This document shows positions 6,835 through 43,152 of a stretch of 64,000 bases of DNA, piece after piece. The stretch is from Numidum massiliense. Lineage in GTDB: Bacteria > Bacillota > Bacilli > Thermoactinomycetales > Novibacillaceae. The position numbers and the translations under genes are program-made. The notes under the pieces are model-generated. The model had not been told where the DNA came from. It made no database searches and was given only the letters and a program-made list of their open reading frames with translations. The DNA lies in the NCBI RefSeq assembly GCF_001375555.1, contig NZ_CTDZ01000009.1, positions 3,155,758 to 3,219,757 of the forward strand, written 5' to 3'. The first letter of the stretch is position 1; the number at the start of each line of letters is the position of its first letter.

Positions 6835-7125
6835 AAAAGCCCCCCGTCCAGTTGGGACGAGAGGCTTACTCACGCGGTACCACCCAAATTTAGCGCCGCA
6901 AATGCCGGCACTACGCTTTAACACGTGTCACTTATACCGTTAACGCAGGTTCACGGGACACCTTACTATACGGCGCCTTGCGCCGCAGTTCGTTCAGGTG
7001 ACCTTCTCCCGGGCCATGTTCACTGTATCTGCCTATGCCGGCTCGCACCTTCCCCGGCTCTCTGCTTTATAGGCAGAAGACAATTACTCTTCCGTTCATC
7101 GAATGTGATTTCCGTAGCAATGTTG
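6835..7125 (-). promoter_or_regulatory. T-box riboswitch controlling metG, Met (ATG) specifier
   Basis: The - strand leader between the metG promoter and the gene contains the T-box core GGGTGGTACCGCG (6873-6885), which binds the 3' end of uncharged tRNA. After it comes a terminator hairpin (6835-6867) with a poly-T tail. In stem I the AGAGAGCCGG element is followed by a specifier loop GTGAACATGGCC. The specifier ATG is at 7015-7017 and lines up with the TCC specifier of the serS T-box in this window. Uncharged tRNA-Met would prevent termination. Confidence 0.92.
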
Positions 7126-24137: not shown

Positions 24138-25562
24138 TCAGTACAGCTTTAAACCGCTGTAGCGGCAAGGAATAAACACACTAAACGTCGTCCCGAATCC
24201 TTTCGTCGATGCGCGAATGTTCCCACCGATGTCGTGAATAATGCGCTGGCACACCGGGAGTCCGAGACCTGTCCCGTTCTCCTTCGTCGTAAAAAACGGA
24301 TCAAATATTTTATCGATGACGTAGTATGGGATACCGGGGCCTGTATCTTGAATATCGATGACGACCTCTTGCCCAGAAGAGGCAAGCCGTTCCCGCACGG
24401 TCAACTTTCCGCCTTCGACCATCGCTTCAATCCCATTTTTACACAAATTAAGGAAAACTTGTTTTAACAATTCACTGTCCGCAATGACAGGCGGTACGTT
24501 TTCCTCGCGTTCATAATGAACGTCGACATTATGTAGTAAGGCTTCATTGCGAATAATCGGTAGCAATTCGGAAAAAACCGCGGCAACATCCACTTCTTCG
24601 TAACTTGCGTGACGCGGTTTGCTCAATAACAGGAATTCACTCACAAGATCGTTAATACGATCGATTTCTTTGAGCATAATATCTGTATATTCTTGTTCCT
24701 TTAGTAAGCCCTTTTCTACTAGCCCGTACTTTAGCACTTGTAAAAACCCTTTAATTGACGTTAACGGATTGCGAATTTCATGTGCTGTACCAGCAGCAAT
24801 TTGTCCGATCATCGCGAGGCGGTCGCTGCGCTGAATTTGTTCGTCCAACGAACGTAGCTGGGTAATGTCTTTAAAAATGACATATGCTCCAACTGTATGA
24901 CCCATTTCGTCAAATAACAAGTTAGAGTCTAACAACAATTCATAGCGCTGCTTACCGTTCGTCCACGAAGTCACTTTGTTGCGTACAGTCACCCCGTCCA
25001 ACAAGTTTTTTTGAATCAGTTGCTGTTCGTTCGGTATTTCTGGGAACACTTCTGCGAGTGACTTATGGAGCACATCTTCACGTGTCACCCCGAGTAATCG
25101 GCACGCTAAATCGCTCAGCGCCACAAGGCGACCCTCCTGGTCGACCACCAAAACACCTAAATCGATATCCGAAATCAAGCTATTCGCAAAGCGCTGTACT
25201 AAATGATACGTATGTACATGCATGACGTTGACAAAGTGGAACAAATAAAAGCAATCTTCACCGTCGCGCCATCGCTGGTACCCGACCGTGCTGAAAAGTC
25301 GCTGCTTGTTAGCCGTCACAATTTCCCCTTCTAGCAGTGTAAACGGTTTTAACGAACACAATGGCGGTTCACCGAAAAGCGTGACGTACCGACTGCGATG
25401 TTCTCCTTTTAATTGCGAAAGACTCGCCCCTGTAGCCTGCATAAAAATCTCGTTTACGTGAATGATGTTTTCGTGATCGTCCACGAAGAGCGCCGCAAAG
25501 GGAAGCTGTCCCATAAGTTGGAATAGATCCGTTAACGACGTTTGTGAGGAAAAATGGATCAA
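24138..25562 (-). CDS. Soluble PAS-PAS histidine kinase, candidate sporulation kinase
   Basis: 474 residues with no membrane segment. Two PAS-like regions (about 10-110 and 125-235) precede a HisKA domain with phospho-acceptor His261 in AAGTAHEIRNPLTSIKGF, then an ATPase domain with N-box LCKNGIEAM, IQDTGPGIP and TGLGLPVCQRI. The H-box is of the KinA/KinE type that feeds Spo0F. There is no cognate response regulator nearby, as for sporulation kinases. TTG start at 25562 follows AAAGGGGTGA. A sigma-H promoter match lies upstream. Target Spo0F is inference. Confidence 0.88.
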   Translation of the reverse strand: MIHFSSQTSLTDLFQLMGQLPFAALFVDDHENIIHVNEIFMQATGASLSQLKGEHRSRYVTLFGEPPLCSLKPFTLLEGEIVTANKQRLFSTVGYQRWRDGEDCFYLFHFVNVMHVHTYHLVQRFANSLISDIDLGVLVVDQEGRLVALSDLACRLLGVTREDVLHKSLAEVFPEIPNEQQLIQKNLLDGVTVRNKVTSWTNGKQRYELLLDSNLLFDEMGHTVGAYVIFKDITQLRSLDEQIQRSDRLAMIGQIAAGTAHEIRNPLTSIKGFLQVLKYGLVEKGLLKEQEYTDIMLKEIDRINDLVSEFLLLSKPRHASYEEVDVAAVFSELLPIIRNEALLHNVDVHYEREENVPPVIADSELLKQVFLNLCKNGIEAMVEGGKLTVRERLASSGQEVVIDIQDTGPGIPYYVIDKIFDPFFTTKENGTGLGLPVCQRIIHDIGGNIRASTKGFGTTFSVFIPCRYSGLKLY

Positions 25563-25756: not shown

Positions 25757-26023
25757 CCGTACACCCGCCCTTGACTAACGCTCACCGAGCGTATCCGAAC
25801 AGTTAGCTCGAATCGGGCCACCCTGCGGCACACGAAAGGATTCACTTACCGCTGCTTCCTTCCGGACCTGACGGGGTTCATGAAATTCCGTTGCGCAGGA
25901 CCCGACTGTCAACACCACTTATTCGAACCAGACCTCGACAAACGTATAGCCGCAAACAGGAATTCGACCCCGCTACAGCGGATTGCGGGTACAGGGCACC
26001 GCTACCTCCCCGTCTAGTACGGC
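25757..26023 (-). ncRNA. ffs: Signal recognition particle RNA (large Bacillus type)
   Basis: About 267 bases, the long form with an Alu domain. The 5' part has GACGGGGAGGTAGCGGTGCC. The S domain has the universally conserved GTCAGGTCCGGAAGGAAGCA and the GGGTCCTGCGCAACGG segment. The 5' and 3' ends (CCGTAC.. / ..GTACGG) pair. Located near dnaX and tadA as scr is in B. subtilis. It scaffolds Ffh in membrane targeting. Confidence 0.95.
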
Positions 26024-26066: not shown

Positions 26067-27512
26067 TTACGAAAAAAACGCGACTTCCTCATAGTCAATC
26101 TGAGAAATAACAGTTTCGATGGCGCTGAGCCGCTCTTTGCTTAAACGTTGCAAAAAATGAACATAATGCGTTTTCCATTCAGCATCGGTCTCTGTGCTGT
26201 CCCACACGATCACATCAAATTGTACGGAGCTGTTCCGTAGCTCTTCATAAAACACGATTTTTGCAAAGATGGCAAGTTCCGTATCGCCAAAAGTCGCAAA
26301 CAACGCCTCATACTCCTCCGCGAACAAACAATCGGCATCGAGTAAATCCAAATAATCGTACAACGAATGGAAGTTTTCCCTAATGAGTTGAACCTTCGCT
26401 TCTGTTTGGTCACAGCGCACAATTTTTTCAATCAATACGCGCAAGCGTACATCGCTCATTTTGTCGGCTTCGTTCACTAACAGCACCTTCTGTTTCGGCT
26501 GCTCTTCTATTTCCGTAATGATGACCGACTCCAAGCTGTCGTGATTAGCAGCCCCCGCGACGCGCTGTACAAGGTCGTTTCGGCATTCGTTCATGTAAGC
26601 TGTGAGGGAAGGATCCGTCTGTAACTCTTGTTGCAGTCGAGCCATCGCGCGGTGAATGGCAGATCTGATTTCAGCGTCACTTGAGCGGGCGAACGACAAT
26701 CGCAGTCGGTTAAATTGCTCAGCTGTTAGGGTGACCTTATTCGCATCCCCACCAGACAAAACCGAGAAAACGGCATGGTCCAGTACTAATCTAAAAATGT
26801 TAAACAGCTCAATCCGGTAATCAAAGCGGCACACTTTTCCGTAGTCGGACAATAACTGTCGCACGTCCTGTTCGGCAAACTGGTGGCAAAATCGCGTCTC
26901 GATGGCAAGGTGCTCCAAATATTGCTTCATGTAAAATACACCTTGCAAGCGCATGTCGTCAATCGCCAGTGGATAATCAATGCTCGCCATCGTATGGTGC
27001 GCCTCAAAAACAATACCGTATTTTCTCATAAACACGGGAAACGCTTCATCAATCGTTAAGTTGTAGGCGTCTACCGGGACAGCTAATTTATTTTTTTTGA
27101 TCTCTTTGTAGAGCTGTTTCGTTTCTATGAAGCATTGGCTGACTAGGGCAAGCCCCTCTTCGTACACATTTCTGACGTCGTTGCCTTTCAAACACTGAAC
27201 AGCCGCGTCTGGTTGGGCAAAGCTTAGCGTATAAGCGTCAACCGCGTACATGATGGAGGCCATGATTCCTTCAGCCGTGTCGGTCGCAACCGAGGAACTT
27301 TCCCCTTTCGTGTACCGACTGATCAACTCTCGCAGGATCGACATTAGCCCGTGTTGGACGTTGTAAACGTCCTCGCTGCTTAACATCCCCGTACGCAGCC
27401 CTTCATTCAGGAGAGAGACGGTGTATGCGTTGCGCTGTAGATTCGCCTCATTTATTTTACTCCGTGCAGCTAATGCCGAATCGTCGTTTAAGTTCTCACA
27501 ATCCAAACTCAT
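26067..27512 (-). CDS. DUF6179-family protein of unknown function
   Basis: 481 residues, predominantly helical and acidic, with no signal peptide, no membrane segment and no enzyme motif I recognise. I assign DUF6179 from overall resemblance and from its pairing with a DUF6323 gene. Of tandem ATGs at 27515 and 27512, the second is better spaced from GGAGAGG. It overlaps the end of the DUF6323 gene by 17 bases, so translation is coupled. The C-terminal 150 residues (LLVNEADKMSDVRLRVLIEK onwards) look like a separate domain. It ends just upstream of the SRP RNA promoter and has no visible terminator of its own. Confidence 0.7.
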   Translation of the reverse strand: MSLDCENLNDDSALAARSKINEANLQRNAYTVSLLNEGLRTGMLSSEDVYNVQHGLMSILRELISRYTKGESSSVATDTAEGIMASIMYAVDAYTLSFAQPDAAVQCLKGNDVRNVYEEGLALVSQCFIETKQLYKEIKKNKLAVPVDAYNLTIDEAFPVFMRKYGIVFEAHHTMASIDYPLAIDDMRLQGVFYMKQYLEHLAIETRFCHQFAEQDVRQLLSDYGKVCRFDYRIELFNIFRLVLDHAVFSVLSGGDANKVTLTAEQFNRLRLSFARSSDAEIRSAIHRAMARLQQELQTDPSLTAYMNECRNDLVQRVAGAANHDSLESVIITEIEEQPKQKVLLVNEADKMSDVRLRVLIEKIVRCDQTEAKVQLIRENFHSLYDYLDLLDADCLFAEEYEALFATFGDTELAIFAKIVFYEELRNSSVQFDVIVWDSTETDAEWKTHYVHFLQRLSKERLSAIETVISQIDYEEVAFFS

Positions 27513-27969
27513 CATCCTCTCCGAACAGAGATTCACTGTGCAATGCGCGCCTTCTGAATTGCTCTGCAAACTCCTCCAGCGTGCTCTTTAACAGCTCTAA
27601 CGAACCGGCACATTCATTGTCAAAGTAATCTTTCATCAAGCCGATCAGCTTCGCGTCGCCGATCTTATCTTCCGTTTCGTTTCTTAAATAATAAAAGATC
27701 TCGTGCAACTCATGCAGCGTAGTTGCATAATTTTCATTATTGATATAAGGGGACGCGCAAAACAGTTCCATTAGTTGTTTCGTTACCTCAAAACCCAGTT
27801 CGACCCGTCCATAATCGCGGAGCACTTTATTTCTAGCAGTGATCATCTGTTGTATTTGCGCGGGAGTTAAGGTTAGACCGAACGCTTGCGTCTTCTGATT
27901 CATTTCGAGTAATTCATTCACAACCTTTTCCGGAACCGGAAAGTTGTAAACGCGGAATAACGAGGACAA
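27496..27969 (-). CDS. DUF6323-family protein of unknown function
   Basis: 157 residues, helical, cytosolic by appearance. The segments LMELFCASPYINNENYATTL and FYYLRNETEDKIGDAKLI are what lead me to DUF6323. TTG at 27969 is the best start (AAGGGGGG seven bases before) and gives the usual short N-terminus before NFPVPEKVV. First gene of a two-gene operon with the DUF6179 gene. A strong promoter and a 200-base leader carrying a tiny ORF lie upstream. No function is known. Confidence 0.72.
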   Translation of the reverse strand: MSSLFRVYNFPVPEKVVNELLEMNQKTQAFGLTLTPAQIQQMITARNKVLRDYGRVELGFEVTKQLMELFCASPYINNENYATTLHELHEIFYYLRNETEDKIGDAKLIGLMKDYFDNECAGSLELLKSTLEEFAEQFRRRALHSESLFGEDDEFGL

Positions 27970-28017
27970 TTCCCTTCCCCCCTTCAATCGATCGGCATCG
28001 GCGACCTGTTCGCTCGG

Positions 28018-28063: not shown

Positions 28064-28112
28064 CCGATCTTTAGAGGTCGGTTTTGCTAAAAAAAACTGT
28101 TGACACCGATCT
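28064..28112 (-). promoter_or_regulatory. Leader segment with mutually exclusive pairings
   Basis: On the - strand transcript AGATCGGT (28105-28112) and AGATCGG (28064-28070) can each pair with ACCGACCT (28075-28082) between them, each pairing with one A-C mismatch. The proximal copy runs into the leader-ORF ribosome site, so the two folds would differ in its accessibility. Confidence 0.4.
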
Positions 28113-28174
28113 TTTTTTATGGTATGTTATAGATGGGAGATTATAAATGATGACATAATGCTAATCCCAATTAT

Positions 28175-28204
28175 TATATACCATAACCGTGACTTCCGTG
28201 TCAA
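28175..28204 (-). promoter_or_regulatory. Probable promoter of the DUF6323-DUF6179 operon
   Basis: -35 TTGACA (28199-28204), 18-bp spacer, -10 TATATA (28175-28180) on the - strand; an overlapping TATAAT gives a 20-bp spacer. Confidence 0.6.
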
Positions 28205-28375: not shown

Positions 28376-28468
<93 letters not shown>

Positions 28469-28630: not shown

Positions 28631-29914
28631 CTACGGCACGGCGTCAGCTAGCGGTAATACGATCGTAAACGTACTCCCTCTACTGTCACTGTTTACAGTA
28701 ATCGTCCCTTCATGCCGCTCCACAATTAGTTTAGCGATAGCGAGCCCGAGGCCGGTTCCCCCAGAGTGGCGTGCTCGCGAACGGTCGGCGCGGTAAAACG
28801 GCTCAAAAACGACACGCACATCGTCAGCGGGAATACCGACACCGGTGTCGCTAATTGTCAGAAGCAACTGCTTACGCTCCCGTTGGCACTTTACCGTAAT
28901 CGTCACCTTACCGTTCAGTCGGTTGTAGCAAATGGCATTTTCGACGATGTTGCTTAGCGCGCGATTGAGTAAATCGCGTTGTCCTAAACAGACGGCAGCC
29001 TCGTCCGCATGCAAGGAAACGTCCACTTGTCGTTCAGCCGCAAGCGGCGCTAACTCTGTCGTCACTTCCGCCAGCATCTGTGCTATGTCGATCCTTTGTT
29101 TGCGGCGAATGATGTCGCGGCGCGACAAGTGCAACAGTTCGTCGACTAAGCAGTTTAAGCGGGCAACTTGTCGTTTTAACACGTATAGCGTTGCGCGATA
29201 GTCTTCCGCCGTCGCCTCATCGTCGTCGAGTTGCACCTCTACATTCGTCTGCATAACCGACAACGGCGTACGTAATTCGTGCGACGCACTGGACACAAAT
29301 TGATACTGGTGCTGAAACACATCTTCCAACCGGGTTAACATCGCGTTGAACGATTGCGCCAACTGCTTCATCTCGTCGTCCGGTCCGTCAGTCGGCAAGA
29401 GTTGTTCGTCAAGGCGGGTAAAGCTGTCGGGGCGAATGTGAGCGATCGTCTCACTCAACTGTTTGATCGGCTTTAGTGGCTTTTTAGCTAGCCAGTACGC
29501 GCCTGCGCTACCCAACACGACGACACCGCTCAAACTAACGACGGAAATGACGATTAAATCGTCCAACGCTTTTTCTATCGTTTGTTGTTGTACAGCTTCC
29601 TGAGGAACAAGCTCAAACGAATGATCGTTAGTCAATTCCATTTGGTGCGGGGTTAACAATGGTGCTGAAGCTGTTTCGCTTTCCTGAAGAGGCAGCTGTG
29701 AACTCTCGTGTAACTCTTTTTGTTGTGTATCCCGCTGTGCCTCCCGATTGAGAGATCCCTCATTCACGATCGATACAGTAGGAAAAACTGCCACAGCTAA
29801 CCCGTTGATGGACGCGATTAATGCGATGCCCGAGAGCGACAACATCGTTGCTGTCCATAGTGCAAGGCGCCATCGCAACGTCAAACGGAATCTTTTTCGC
29901 TTCATTTTGCTCAT
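28631..29914 (-). CDS. Membrane sensor histidine kinase
   Basis: 427 residues: transmembrane segment about 15-48, an extracytoplasmic stretch of about 75 residues (Gln/Glu-rich), second membrane segment about 121-143, HAMP linker, HisKA with His212 in SSASHELRTPLSV, ATPase with VENAICYN, ISDTGVGIP and GGTGLGLAIAKL. It overlaps the response regulator gene by four bases (ATGA) and is its partner. The small sensor domain suggests an envelope or metal-type signal, but the ligand is unknown. Confidence 0.92.
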   Translation of the reverse strand: MSKMKRKRFRLTLRWRLALWTATMLSLSGIALIASINGLAVAVFPTVSIVNEGSLNREAQRDTQQKELHESSQLPLQESETASAPLLTPHQMELTNDHSFELVPQEAVQQQTIEKALDDLIVISVVSLSGVVVLGSAGAYWLAKKPLKPIKQLSETIAHIRPDSFTRLDEQLLPTDGPDDEMKQLAQSFNAMLTRLEDVFQHQYQFVSSASHELRTPLSVMQTNVEVQLDDDEATAEDYRATLYVLKRQVARLNCLVDELLHLSRRDIIRRKQRIDIAQMLAEVTTELAPLAAERQVDVSLHADEAAVCLGQRDLLNRALSNIVENAICYNRLNGKVTITVKCQRERKQLLLTISDTGVGIPADDVRVVFEPFYRADRSRARHSGGTGLGLAIAKLIVERHEGTITVNSDSRGSTFTIVLPLADAVP

Positions 29915-30645
29915 CGCCGCACTTCCCTTGACTCGTCATTGTCCGTCACCGTAGGCGTTCCGTTTACATGCCCCTTTACATTTAAGCGGTACCCGACGCC
30001 GTGAACCGTTTCGAACGTAACCGGCTGTGCGACCCGTTGCCCGAGCTTACGCCGCAAGGCATTAATGTGGACGCGAACGACATTTGTAAACGGATTCACC
30101 GACTCGTCCCACAAACTTTCTAACAACTCCTCTTGGCTAACGACGACGCCGGGACGCATAAGAAAGTATTGCAACAAGGCAAATTCCTTCCGCGTCACCG
30201 TTAGCGGCTGTCCGCCGTACGTCACCGTTTGCTTCGCTGGATCGACCGTTAACGAGCCGCAGCGGAGCACGGGCTGCTGTAACTCGAAGCGTCGCCGCGT
30301 CAAGGCGCGAATTCGCGCGCGCAACTCGGTAAAGGCAAACGGCTTCGTCACATAATCACACGCCCCTAGATCGAGTCCTTGCACCCGTTCCGCCACTTCC
30401 GTTCGTGCGCTTAAAATAAGTACTTTGCTTTGCGGCCGTTCCTCGAGTACGCGTGCGAGCACGTCCAAACCGTCCATGCCCGGTAAATTGAGATCCAACA
30501 ACATTAAATCGTAGGTGTTTACTTCTACGTAATAAAGTGCCTCTTCTCCGTCTAACGCCACGTCTACCGCATAGCCGTCTTTGCGCAAACCTTTGGCTAA
30601 GGCGTGCACTAGATCCACTTCATCCTCCACGATTAACAGCCGCAA
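29911..30645 (-). CDS. OmpR-family response regulator
   Basis: 244 residues: receiver domain with acidic pocket ED (7-8), phospho-acceptor Asp51 in LLDLNLPGMDG and Lys in VTKPFAF; C-terminal winged helix ending GVGYRLNVKG, followed by a 20-residue tail. Sits directly upstream of its kinase. The upstream secreted-protein gene is on the same strand 144 bp away and is a likely target or operon member. Confidence 0.93.
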   Translation of the reverse strand: MRLLIVEDEVDLVHALAKGLRKDGYAVDVALDGEEALYYVEVNTYDLMLLDLNLPGMDGLDVLARVLEERPQSKVLILSARTEVAERVQGLDLGACDYVTKPFAFTELRARIRALTRRRFELQQPVLRCGSLTVDPAKQTVTYGGQPLTVTRKEFALLQYFLMRPGVVVSQEELLESLWDESVNPFTNVVRVHINALRRKLGQRVAQPVTFETVHGVGYRLNVKGHVNGTPTVTDNDESREVRR

Positions 30646-30672
30646 AGCTTTTCCCCCTTAATCTGTTGAACA

Positions 30673-30712
30673 GTAGCGGTCACCCGGATCTTCCGCCCGG
30701 GCATTCCGCTAC
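30673..30712 (-). promoter_or_regulatory. Large nested hairpin before the response regulator gene
   Basis: GTAGCGG and CCGCTAC enclose a second stem CCCGG/CCGGG. There is no T-run after it on the - strand. It lies between the secreted-protein gene and the regulator, so it could be a processing site or attenuator. Confidence 0.5.
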
Positions 30713-30789
30713 AATCAATCCAAACGCGAGTACGCACGTCTAGATAACAACATTACCCGCGGTTACACAGTTATGTCCAATGAAGCCAG

Positions 30790-31449
30790 TTAGATCGTGA
30801 TATAGCCGTTGTAGTTAATCCCGTGTGGCCCGATATTCCAAACCATGATCCGATAGTTACCCGTTTTATTCACTTTAAAGTTAGCTTTACCCGAACCGCC
30901 GCTTAGCGTCGTATAGTAAAACGTTCCCGAACTGTCCAGTAAGCCGACTCTTACTTTGGACGCCCCCGGTACCCAAGTGAGTGAGATTGACCCAGTTTCA
31001 CCAGTTACAAAGCTCCAAGGGCCGTATTGATGCGCATAGTTTACACCGAGTGACCCACTAACGCGGTAAGTCGCTTCCTTTCCGTTGTCGTCTCCCGCCA
31101 CTTTGTCAGCCTCTGTTAAGGTAATATTCTGGACATTCTTCGGTAGCTGCTTCGTCACATTGGCGGGAGCCCCGTTAATAGTAACCGTATTCGATTGCTC
31201 TGCCTTTTTATCCTTAGTCGCATTCGCCGGGGGATCATCAACGATCTCCATCGTCACGTCAGCAGAAGCGTCCTTTGTCACATCGACCAGTTTAAACTGC
31301 TCACTAGGATTCTTAATCGCCTTCTCGGACGGGTTTAACGACATCACACCGGAGTTTACATCCGATCCATTCGCAGCGACGACCACCGTAGACACCCCTA
31401 ACACGACGACGAGGATAGCAACGCCAACTAACCACTTCTTTTTACTCAT
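30790..31449 (-). CDS. Secreted protein of unknown function with C-terminal beta-sandwich-like domain
   Basis: 219 residues. An N-terminal hydrophobic segment (KKKWLVGVAILVVVLGV, possible cut after VVVAA) directs export. Residues 30-125 are polar with Lys/Asp/Thr and look disordered. Residues 130-219 alternate in a beta-rich pattern, with two Gly-Pro-Trp/His motifs (YGPWSFVTG and WNIGPHGINYNG), similar in style to pre-peptidase C-terminal-type domains. I do not recognise the family. ATG 31449 has AAGGAGG. Likely forms an operon with the two-component genes downstream. Confidence 0.75.
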   Translation of the reverse strand: MSKKKWLVGVAILVVVLGVSTVVVAANGSDVNSGVMSLNPSEKAIKNPSEQFKLVDVTKDASADVTMEIVDDPPANATKDKKAEQSNTVTINGAPANVTKQLPKNVQNITLTEADKVAGDDNGKEATYRVSGSLGVNYAHQYGPWSFVTGETGSISLTWVPGASKVRVGLLDSSGTFYYTTLSGGSGKANFKVNKTGNYRIMVWNIGPHGINYNGYITI

Positions 31450-31541: not shown

Positions 31542-32006
31542 TTACTTGTTGCGTTGCCGTAGCGAGCGAAAGAAGTTGCTGAGGCGCGCGGCACACTCTG
31601 CCTGCAATACACCACTTTCGACGTGTACGCGGTGATTAAAGCGTGGCTCGGTTAGCAAATTCATTAACGTCCCAGCACAACCCGCTTTCGGATCTGGCGT
31701 GCCGTATACGACTCGTTTAAGGCGCGACTGTACGATTGCCCCCGCACACATCGGGCACGGTTCAAGCGTGACGACGAGGGTACAACCAGGCAACCGCCAA
31801 CCGCCTAACTGCGCACTAGCGGCTCGAATCGCTACCATCTCCGCGTGGTTCGTCGGATCTTTCGTCGTTTCGCGCAAATTATAGCCGGTAGCGATAATAT
31901 CACCGTCTCGTACGATCACGGCGCCGATCGGTACTTCCCCGATCGCTTCCGCGCGATCGGCCTGTTCTAAAGCAACTTTCATATAAGGGATCCATTCGTT
32001 CTCCAC
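31542..32006 (-). CDS. tadA: tRNA-specific adenosine deaminase TadA
   Basis: Converts A34 to inosine in tRNA-Arg(ACG). 154 residues with zinc-site motifs NHAEMVAI (catalytic Glu) and LEPCPMCAGAI, and the RVVYGTPDPKAGCAG loop. Length and motifs match B. subtilis YaaJ. Position between serS and the SRP RNA is conserved in outline, although accessory genes have been inserted. Confidence 0.95.
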   Translation of the reverse strand: MENEWIPYMKVALEQADRAEAIGEVPIGAVIVRDGDIIATGYNLRETTKDPTNHAEMVAIRAASAQLGGWRLPGCTLVVTLEPCPMCAGAIVQSRLKRVVYGTPDPKAGCAGTLMNLLTEPRFNHRVHVESGVLQAECAARLSNFFRSLRQRNK

Positions 32007-42913: not shown

Positions 42914-43152
42914 AAAAAGTAAAAGGCCCTTCCACCCCGTAAAAGGGACGGAAGGACCGCGTTGCCACCCTAATTGGCAGAATTGTTTCCTGCCCACTTT
43001 CGTTTCGATAACGGTGAATGCCGTCTTCGCGCTCAGAGGTGGATTCGCCTTTTTACCTGCACCGGTTCACAGCGACCACCGGCTCTCTGCAGCAGTATAT
43101 AAAAGGTTACTCGGTCTCGTCATCGCGTGTTAATGTATAATCCTTTAAGTCA
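42914..43152 (-). promoter_or_regulatory. T-box riboswitch controlling serS, Ser (TCC) specifier
   Basis: On the - strand the T-box core AGGGTGGCAACGCGG (42957-42971) is followed by a terminator hairpin (CCTTCC/GGAAGG, T-run at 42914-42919). Stem I has AGAGAGCCGG and the specifier loop GGCGAATCCACC with TCC at 43041-43043. Aligned against the metG leader the two specifiers fall at the same place. Confidence 0.92.

Follow-up and report, generated by a model that had tools for sequence, protein, structure and literature searches.

Two-gene phage-defence and toxin-antitoxin cassettes are small and scattered, and their genes overlap. In P2-like phages, the lytic and lysogenic promoters stand face to face, 40–60 bp apart, and in phage 186, as described in the parts of the source cited here, pR inhibits the facing pL by interference and not the reverse (PMC7498355). 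In a model of a cis-antisense switch, in the excerpt of that paper on which we draw, bistability arises only with antisense pairing and none comes from interference alone (PMC4519249). The locus described here lies in the window, the whole stretch of 64,000 nucleotides of Numidum massiliense DNA that was analysed, and consists of a DUF6323 gene, a DUF6179 gene and the DNA upstream of them. The linkage of the pair, its upstream element and its spread are without description in the literature searched; no paper there was found to name DUF6323 or DUF6179, and the Pfam descriptions of PF19848 and PF19677 both read "unknown function". The main new point is a conserved duel of two predicted promoters upstream of the pair.

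On the minus strand of the window, the order is tRNA-Ser(CGA), DUF6323, DUF6179 and the gene of the large SRP RNA (Table 1). Both proteins clear their Pfam cut-offs, with the frame at 27496–27987(-) matching PF19848 (E 2.8e-49, 166.5 bits, cut-off 30.6) and the frame at 26067–27569(-) matching PF19677 over residues 78–352 (E 9.9e-94, 313.9 bits, cut-off 25). The likely start of DUF6323 is the TTG behind AAGGGGGG, in agreement with the end at 27969 given in the preliminary description, which had also set the positions of the genes, named both families, noted a tight overlap and placed the pair between the SRP RNA and tRNA-Ser(CGA), all of which our analysis bears out. The overlap amounts to 20, 17 or 11 nt for a DUF6179 start at 27515, 27512 or 27506, respectively, and the two genes are probably translationally coupled.

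Table 1. Coordinates, within the window, of the gene pair, its flanks and the elements upstream of it
Feature	Position	Strand	Details
DUF6323 gene	27496..27969	-	PF19848; likely start TTG 27969, frame open back to 27987
DUF6179 gene	26067..27515	-	PF19677; start ATG 27515/27512 or TTG 27506, frame open to 27569
Large SRP RNA (ffs)	25757..26022	-	Directly downstream flank of the pair; RF01854, 230.8 bits
tRNA-Ser(CGA)	28378..28468	-	Flank upstream of the DUF6323-DUF6179 pair
Predicted promoter F, towards the pair	28173..28204	-	-35 TTGACA 28204–28199; -10 TATATA/TATAAT within 28180–28173, spacer 18 or 20
Predicted promoter R, away from the pair	28100..28128	+	TTGACA, 17 nt, TGg-TATGTT; 10/12 matches in a simple scan
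A-tract, UP-like, just upstream of the R -35 hexamer	28089..28096	+	Seen in the sequence
Inverted repeat (I1) of the two -10 regions	Arms 28117–28138, 28165–28186		22 nt, 82% complementary

AlphaFold2 models, built from alignments of 68 sequences, are confident and all-helical for both DUF6323 (163-residue frame, pLDDT 87.1, pTM 0.78) and DUF6179 (479-residue form, pLDDT 89.3, pTM 0.83), consistent with an earlier characterisation as helical proteins with no recognised motif. Foldseek gave no match at E ≤ 0.001 for either model in the PDB, or for DUF6179 in BFVD, and the best VIA-align Z scores against the PDB, 6.7 for DUF6323 and 5.3 for DUF6179, mean little because the proteins are helical. 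By single stretch, neither protein has a sequence relative in the PDB. Matches of DUF6179 to designer PPR/alpha-solenoid proteins in a PDB sequence-profile search (E down to 2.8e-10) sum tiny repeats, no single stretch of which passes; the assignment was rejected, and the matches may be taken as a sign of helical repeats only. A two-protein complex of DUF6323 and DUF6179 is plausible.

No firm NCBIfam, PADLOC or PHROG family was found for either protein. In PADLOC-DB 2.0.0, the DUF6323 of the window matches NsnC alone (18.8 bits, E 2.5e-4) and its DUF6179 matches nothing. At E ≤ 0.01, NsnC (PDLC03895) is matched by 3 of 68 DUF6323 homologues and six other models by one each, and four models are each matched by one of the 68 DUF6179 homologues. 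A match to PDC-M33C (one of the 68 DUF6179 homologues, L162, 26.4 bits) was dropped because the genes at the four places with stronger matches (4 of 239 genomes) look by eye unlike DUF6323 and DUF6179. The proteins encoded near the pair were sampled as 142 of the 270 listed, from loci L097–L142, after six short ones of the first 148 had been dropped. They match 59 PADLOC families at E ≤ 1e-5, with 1–8 members each and with mad3 (8) and mad8 (6) in the lead, and their Pfam families are led by ABC_tran (8) and MFS_1 (5); both tallies look generic.

Among 398 genomes of the phylum, DUF6179 is over its cut-off in 25 and DUF6323 in 23, and every one of the 23 DUF6323 genomes has both genes, adjacent to each other, as expected from the co-occurrence stated in the preliminary description. 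In the two genomes with DUF6179 alone, the contig begins inside the gene (G134) or the match is a short remnant (G228). Within the order, DUF6179 is over its cut-off in 10 of 42 genomes. Neither family has a match in any of 14 named control genomes, one of them B. subtilis, where a counterpart had indeed been said to be lacking. Copies of the pair are found in records titled B. inaquosorum, B. sonorensis, B. paralicheniformis (broken) and B. subtilis DE0224. In B. inaquosorum, a gene that is patatin-like by eye (L127, 5734–6735) adjoins the pair.

A scan of one genome per species returned 82 relatives, of which 80 were kept; since the scan used one conserved peptide pattern, this is an under-count. 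The record titles include Paenibacillus, Bacillus, Virgibacillus, Oceanobacillus, Thermoactinomyces, Alicyclobacillus, Clostridium, Desulfosporosinus and Syntrophomonas, among others. Together with two viral contigs, the 80 relatives make up loci L097–L178 (n = 82), in 81 of which DUF6323 lies ahead of DUF6179; in the exception, L176, the contig starts inside DUF6179, and the DUF6323 of L103, overlooked by the ORF script, is intact by tblastn. Wherever both frames were called (110 loci, with some genomes counted twice), the genes are on the same strand with DUF6323 first, and the longest DUF6179 frame starts no more than 30 nt from the DUF6323 stop in 87 of these loci and no more than 10 nt from it in 49. 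No gene besides the pair is conserved across the 82 loci. The commonest immediate neighbour family on either side occurs in three of them, and the wider neighbour families, by eye ABC transporters, response regulators and kinases, occur in 26, 14 and 12. By these comparisons, the pair is a self-contained unit of two genes that travel together. Five loci (L076, L077, L079, L081, L082) have a short DUF6179 (236–307 residues) that lacks the C-terminal part and still has DUF6323 as its partner; all five are without the promoter element.

The site of the pair can be compared with its equivalent in a genome of the window's own family (G415), where homologues of tadA, tRNA-Ser(CGA), ffs and a kinase gene are contiguous. 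The tadA and kinase genes, both named by eye, have their window counterparts at 31542–32006 and 24138–25562, respectively. The interval from tRNA to ffs, which holds no pair in G415, is 59 nt there versus 2355 nt in the window, and the insertion beside ffs proposed earlier is thereby supported. The tRNA lies within 200 nt of ffs in five more loci (L198, L199, L200, L202 and L204), among 30 ffs loci of 42 found. The copy of the pair in G415 sits elsewhere and is 50% identical to that of the window, and a copy from another family (G410) is 69% identical. In a quick tree with SH-aLRT support only, where finding more than one change does not prove transfer, Kroppenstedtia stands beside Bacillaceae, and the window's group does not include G415. 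With no conserved neighbour, a site that is empty in a relative and a tree that crosses families, the pair therefore appears to be horizontally mobile. Broken copies are present in L139, L141, L146 and L164, and the copy in L178 is truncated; remnants comprise, besides the DUF6179 of G228, a DUF6323 with two stops, below the cut-off, in G195. DUF6179 has one match in 72,556 plasmid records, on a replicon of 2.6 Mb, and DUF6323 has none in 50,697 phage records.

Among the IMG/VR contigs scanned, two (L097 and L098) carry the pair at their ends; the genes beside it there are not clearly phage genes by eye, and a link to prophages was discarded. A gene that by eye resembles an LXG toxin (L097, 440–1969) lies near the pair in this Bacillus-like contig. 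The copy in L157, a Desulfuromonadales MAG contig that is probably mis-binned, groups with the Clostridia copies in the tree. On the other side of tRNA-Ser(CGA), the stretch of the window that leads to tadA (28631–31449) encodes a 219-residue protein as well as a histidine kinase and a response regulator, named by eye. This set is absent from the same interval in G415, and in L197 a gap of 54 nt separates the end of the tadA homologue from the tRNA; 28631–31449 is probably a second insertion at the same spot as the pair.

Upstream of the pair in the window, two promoter-like sequences of the sigma-A type, F and R, face each other (Table 1). The -10 hexamer of R matches the consensus at four of six positions and is preceded by TG. 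A simple scan of the window, which returned 5 promoter-like sites versus 3.8 expected, lists R and, because of its rule on the spacer and the last T, misses F; the same scan, which misses F too, finds no minus-strand promoter site between R and DUF6323. F is the only promoter evident upstream of the pair in this DNA. No Rfam match was found upstream of the pair in the window, and a candidate leader peptide (ATG GAA AAA CGT...) is not seen by eye in L143. The dedicated leader of the preliminary description is not supported as worded; the part conserved in relatives is the face-to-face promoter pair, which had escaped that description. Elsewhere, the window has two T-box leaders, at 6850–7108 and 42941–43132, both on the minus strand.

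The element was followed through the relatives in 100 unique upstream regions (111 before identical ones were removed), 96 of which have 420 nt of real upstream DNA; L139 and L162 were left out of the 96 because DUF6323 there starts at the contig edge, and the shuffle and back-to-back figures rest on 98 regions. The typical layout before DUF6323 is F (TTGACA-17-TAWAAT), then the facing R (TTGAC-17-TATAAT on the other strand), then the ribosome-binding site. A convergent F/R pair is found in 74 of the 96 regions by a loose rule and in 68 by a strict one, which for R demands TTGAC, a 17-nt spacer and TG before the -10, although related species are not independent and these counts overstate the number of events; a first, looser promoter rule had given 75 of 81. 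In 20 dinucleotide shuffles of the 98 regions, the loose rule was satisfied by 5.35 regions on average (maximum 9) and the strict rule by none. Upstream of other genes in L097–L178, the counts were 43 of 831 (loose) and 4 of 831 (strict), and the back-to-back arrangement occurred in 31 (loose) and 9 (strict) of the same 98 regions. Both deep branches of the tree, the Bacilli type and the Clostridia type, include loci with the element.

In the logo of R (66 loci, from a thinned set of 69, with a small bonus for TG and 17 nt in the choice of sites), TTGAC stands at 98–100%, and the -10 is preceded by T (89%), A or G (in 70 of 71), T (98%) and G (95%); A makes up 65–81% at positions -9 to -5 of R. 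The R spacer is 17 nt in 71 of 74 loci, a length slightly favoured by the score of the script, and the -10 to -10 distance is 26–43 bp in 57 of 74 and 50–59 bp in 17. No TRTG-like motif was found in the F promoters (61 loci). For B. subtilis promoters, TRTG is named as the -16 consensus, with a reported stabilising effect on the open complex; in the same engineering study, in the excerpt cited, changing the authors' own promoter to TRTG gave no activity (PMC6570832).

The loose rule misses 22 of the 96 regions (L073, L076, L077, L079–L082, L092, L102, L117, L128, L129, L133, L141, L149, L151, L152, L154, L163, L168, L169 and L175) and the strict rule 28, so that the cassette can do without the element. 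Five of the misses (L117, L128, L133, L151 and L154) lie in one clade of the tree, Oceanobacillus/Metabacillus. L102, missed by the loose rule, does match the exact pattern described below, and in L129 one base within the element was not read. The Kroppenstedtia locus L103, outside the 96, is by eye without the element.

Whole genomes were searched with an exact pattern (TTGAC, 17–21, TAWWWT, 20–50, AWNWTANCA, 14, WGTCAA), for which the match in the window, G000:C9:3183857-3183961, corresponds to 28100–28204. In the 42 genomes of the order, there are six matches (G000, G403, G405, G410, G433 and G435), each just upstream of DUF6323; the 32 genomes of the order without DUF6179 over the cut-off have none, and the reversed-pattern control also gave none. 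In the 398 genomes of the phylum, the pattern occurs in 12 and the reversed control in none. Six of these matches lie upstream of DUF6323 (G000, G061, G309, G311, G330 and G352) and six elsewhere (G046, G072, G269, G293, G342 and G377), those of G377 and G072 between repressor-like and dinB-like genes, named by eye. The pattern finds 6 of 10 carriers in the order and 6 of 23 in the phylum, and thus misses many true copies. Within the order, and by this exact pattern, the element appears nearly exclusive to the DUF6323-DUF6179 operon.

A similar convergent promoter pattern was noticed in L185, L186 and L189 (position 1501–1586); by eye, L186 and L189 have a repressor-like gene, followed by a metalloprotease-like one, on one side and a dinB-like gene on the other, and the pattern of these three loci is possibly an SOS-linked switch. 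In viral contigs, a stricter pattern gave 94 stretches (L234–L327), a raw count in which many match on both strands; genes with repressor-like starts lie beside some of them, by eye. The frames flanking the 94 stretches have no match to DUF6323 (best E 0.80). The face-to-face layout itself therefore occurs in phages too, and near-consensus facing promoters in viral contigs offer a possible route to finding phage switches.

The reading that we favour, with slightly better than an even chance of being right, is that of a horizontally moving cassette in which F is opposed by R as a brake and the coupled proteins act in one complex that confers an accessory trait. The activity of F and R as promoters, and the interference between them, we infer from their consensus. 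F, the cassette's only evident promoter, would meet R head-on over 26–59 bp from -10 to -10, and R would lie between F and the ribosome-binding site, firing away from the genes. If transcription starts 7 nt past each -10, the starts of F and R would be about 8–41 bp apart. Two initiating polymerases cannot sit as close as this, so that two RNA polymerases should not occupy or clear the element together. Since R has more features of a strong promoter than F, it should hold the operon low, repressing F through transcriptional interference for as long as R is neither blocked nor outcompeted. Production of DUF6323 and DUF6179 would be coupled, and the two proteins would most likely work as a single complex. 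We speak of a brake and not of a switch because, in the model cited above from an excerpt (PMC4519249), interference alone gives no bistability; antisense pairing, or feedback by the DUF6323 and DUF6179 proteins, would be required for a true switch. As to the trait, which we take to be accessory, we would guess conditional stress or phage defence as the likeliest class; phage defence as the role is a first guess, and a doubtful one, to which the neighbours seen lend no support.

If the favoured reading is right, the locus would be a naturally occurring example of control by competing promoters, with no linked repressor, tied to one scattered operon. Two unnamed families become a defined unit, a promoter element and two genes, with a control that can be tested, and the element can serve as a marker with which to find the system and test it in laboratory Bacillus.

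Of the other explanations, the one that survives best, although unlikely, is that the R transcript is itself functional: as an antisense or small RNA, it would pair with the mRNA of the operon, the way type I toxin-antitoxin systems work, or bind both proteins in an RNA-protein complex. R is close to the promoter consensus, and pairing is what the modelling paper, in the excerpt cited, requires for a bistable switch (PMC4519249). Similar hairpins of the GTATCTTC..GAAGATAC type, in four Clostridium loci (L166, L171, L172 and L174) and by eye in L170, would terminate transcription from R at about +88 to +103, and L173 has another hairpin at +132. However, only 34 of 74 loci have a terminator-like hairpin in the first 420 nt from the R start, with mixed sequences, and the Bacillus loci L121, L127 and L146 have none; the overlap with the mRNA would be just about 8–41 nt, and the lack of an Rfam match upstream of the pair in the window also tells against such an RNA. 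A conserved small RNA from R, sought as a general rule among the 74 loci, was not found.

A toxin-antitoxin module, in which DUF6323 would be the antitoxin and DUF6179 the toxin, is also unlikely. The small gene comes first, the genes overlap and the pair is scattered, as such a module would have it, but DUF6179 is a large protein with conservation along most of its sequence, no fold match was found, and the counts in phage and plasmid records given above are against it.

A further, improbable reading makes the opposing promoters themselves a sensor, in a stand-alone phage-defence cassette that watches the host RNA polymerase. With normal sigma-A polymerase, the strong R, dependent on its A-tract and TRTGn, would outcompete F; once a phage or stress alters the polymerase, R would weaken more than F, F would be freed and the complex would be made. 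Such a device would work without a sensor or repressor gene of its own; this would account for the absence of any linked one and for the finding that, within the order, the exact pattern occurs only at this operon.

Alternatively, the inverted promoter-like sequences might be an operator for a DNA-binding regulator and not two working promoters. The element is dyad-like, and in some Clostridium loci F contains, by eye, a dyad of the CATTGAC..GTCAATG type, perfect in L174. Against this, the 17-nt spacing of R with TRTGn and a -10 is the arrangement of a sigma-A promoter, and the two halves stand at distances that span a range of 33 bp; moreover, since the exact pattern marks no other gene within the order, no shared regulator is evident, and we consider an operator quite improbable. 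The four Clostridium copies with the dyad inside F (L166, L171, L172 and L174) have hairpins that resemble one another further upstream, in neighbourhoods that differ, and this dyad and hairpin may be a lineage-specific operator and the end of a small RNA. Finally, it is very improbable that the pair is a sporulation or housekeeping set of spore formers with an incidental upstream element, for Spo0A_C, present in 22 of 23 phylum carriers, is found in 345 of 398 genomes regardless and is thus uninformative, G030 has the pair without it, just 10 of the 42 order genomes have the pair, its surroundings differ between genomes, and broken copies exist.

Comparison of the favoured cassette with the systems described at the outset reveals both differences and common features. 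In P2-like phages, regulators and operators are found at the promoters, whereas here a conserved gene set lies on one side only: no linked regulator genes driven by each promoter, nor any conserved gene besides the pair, were found in the 82 loci. Unlike two-gene defence cassettes, the pair has only stray weak matches in PADLOC and generic neighbours, although it resembles both these and toxin-antitoxin cassettes in being small, scattered and built of overlapping genes. Set against Pfam, both proteins are clear members of their profiles, DUF6323 of PF19848 and DUF6179 of PF19677. With the pR–pL arrangement of phage 186 and its relatives, in turn, the locus shares two vegetative promoters, recognised here by consensus only, that face each other at a short distance at which interference would be expected.
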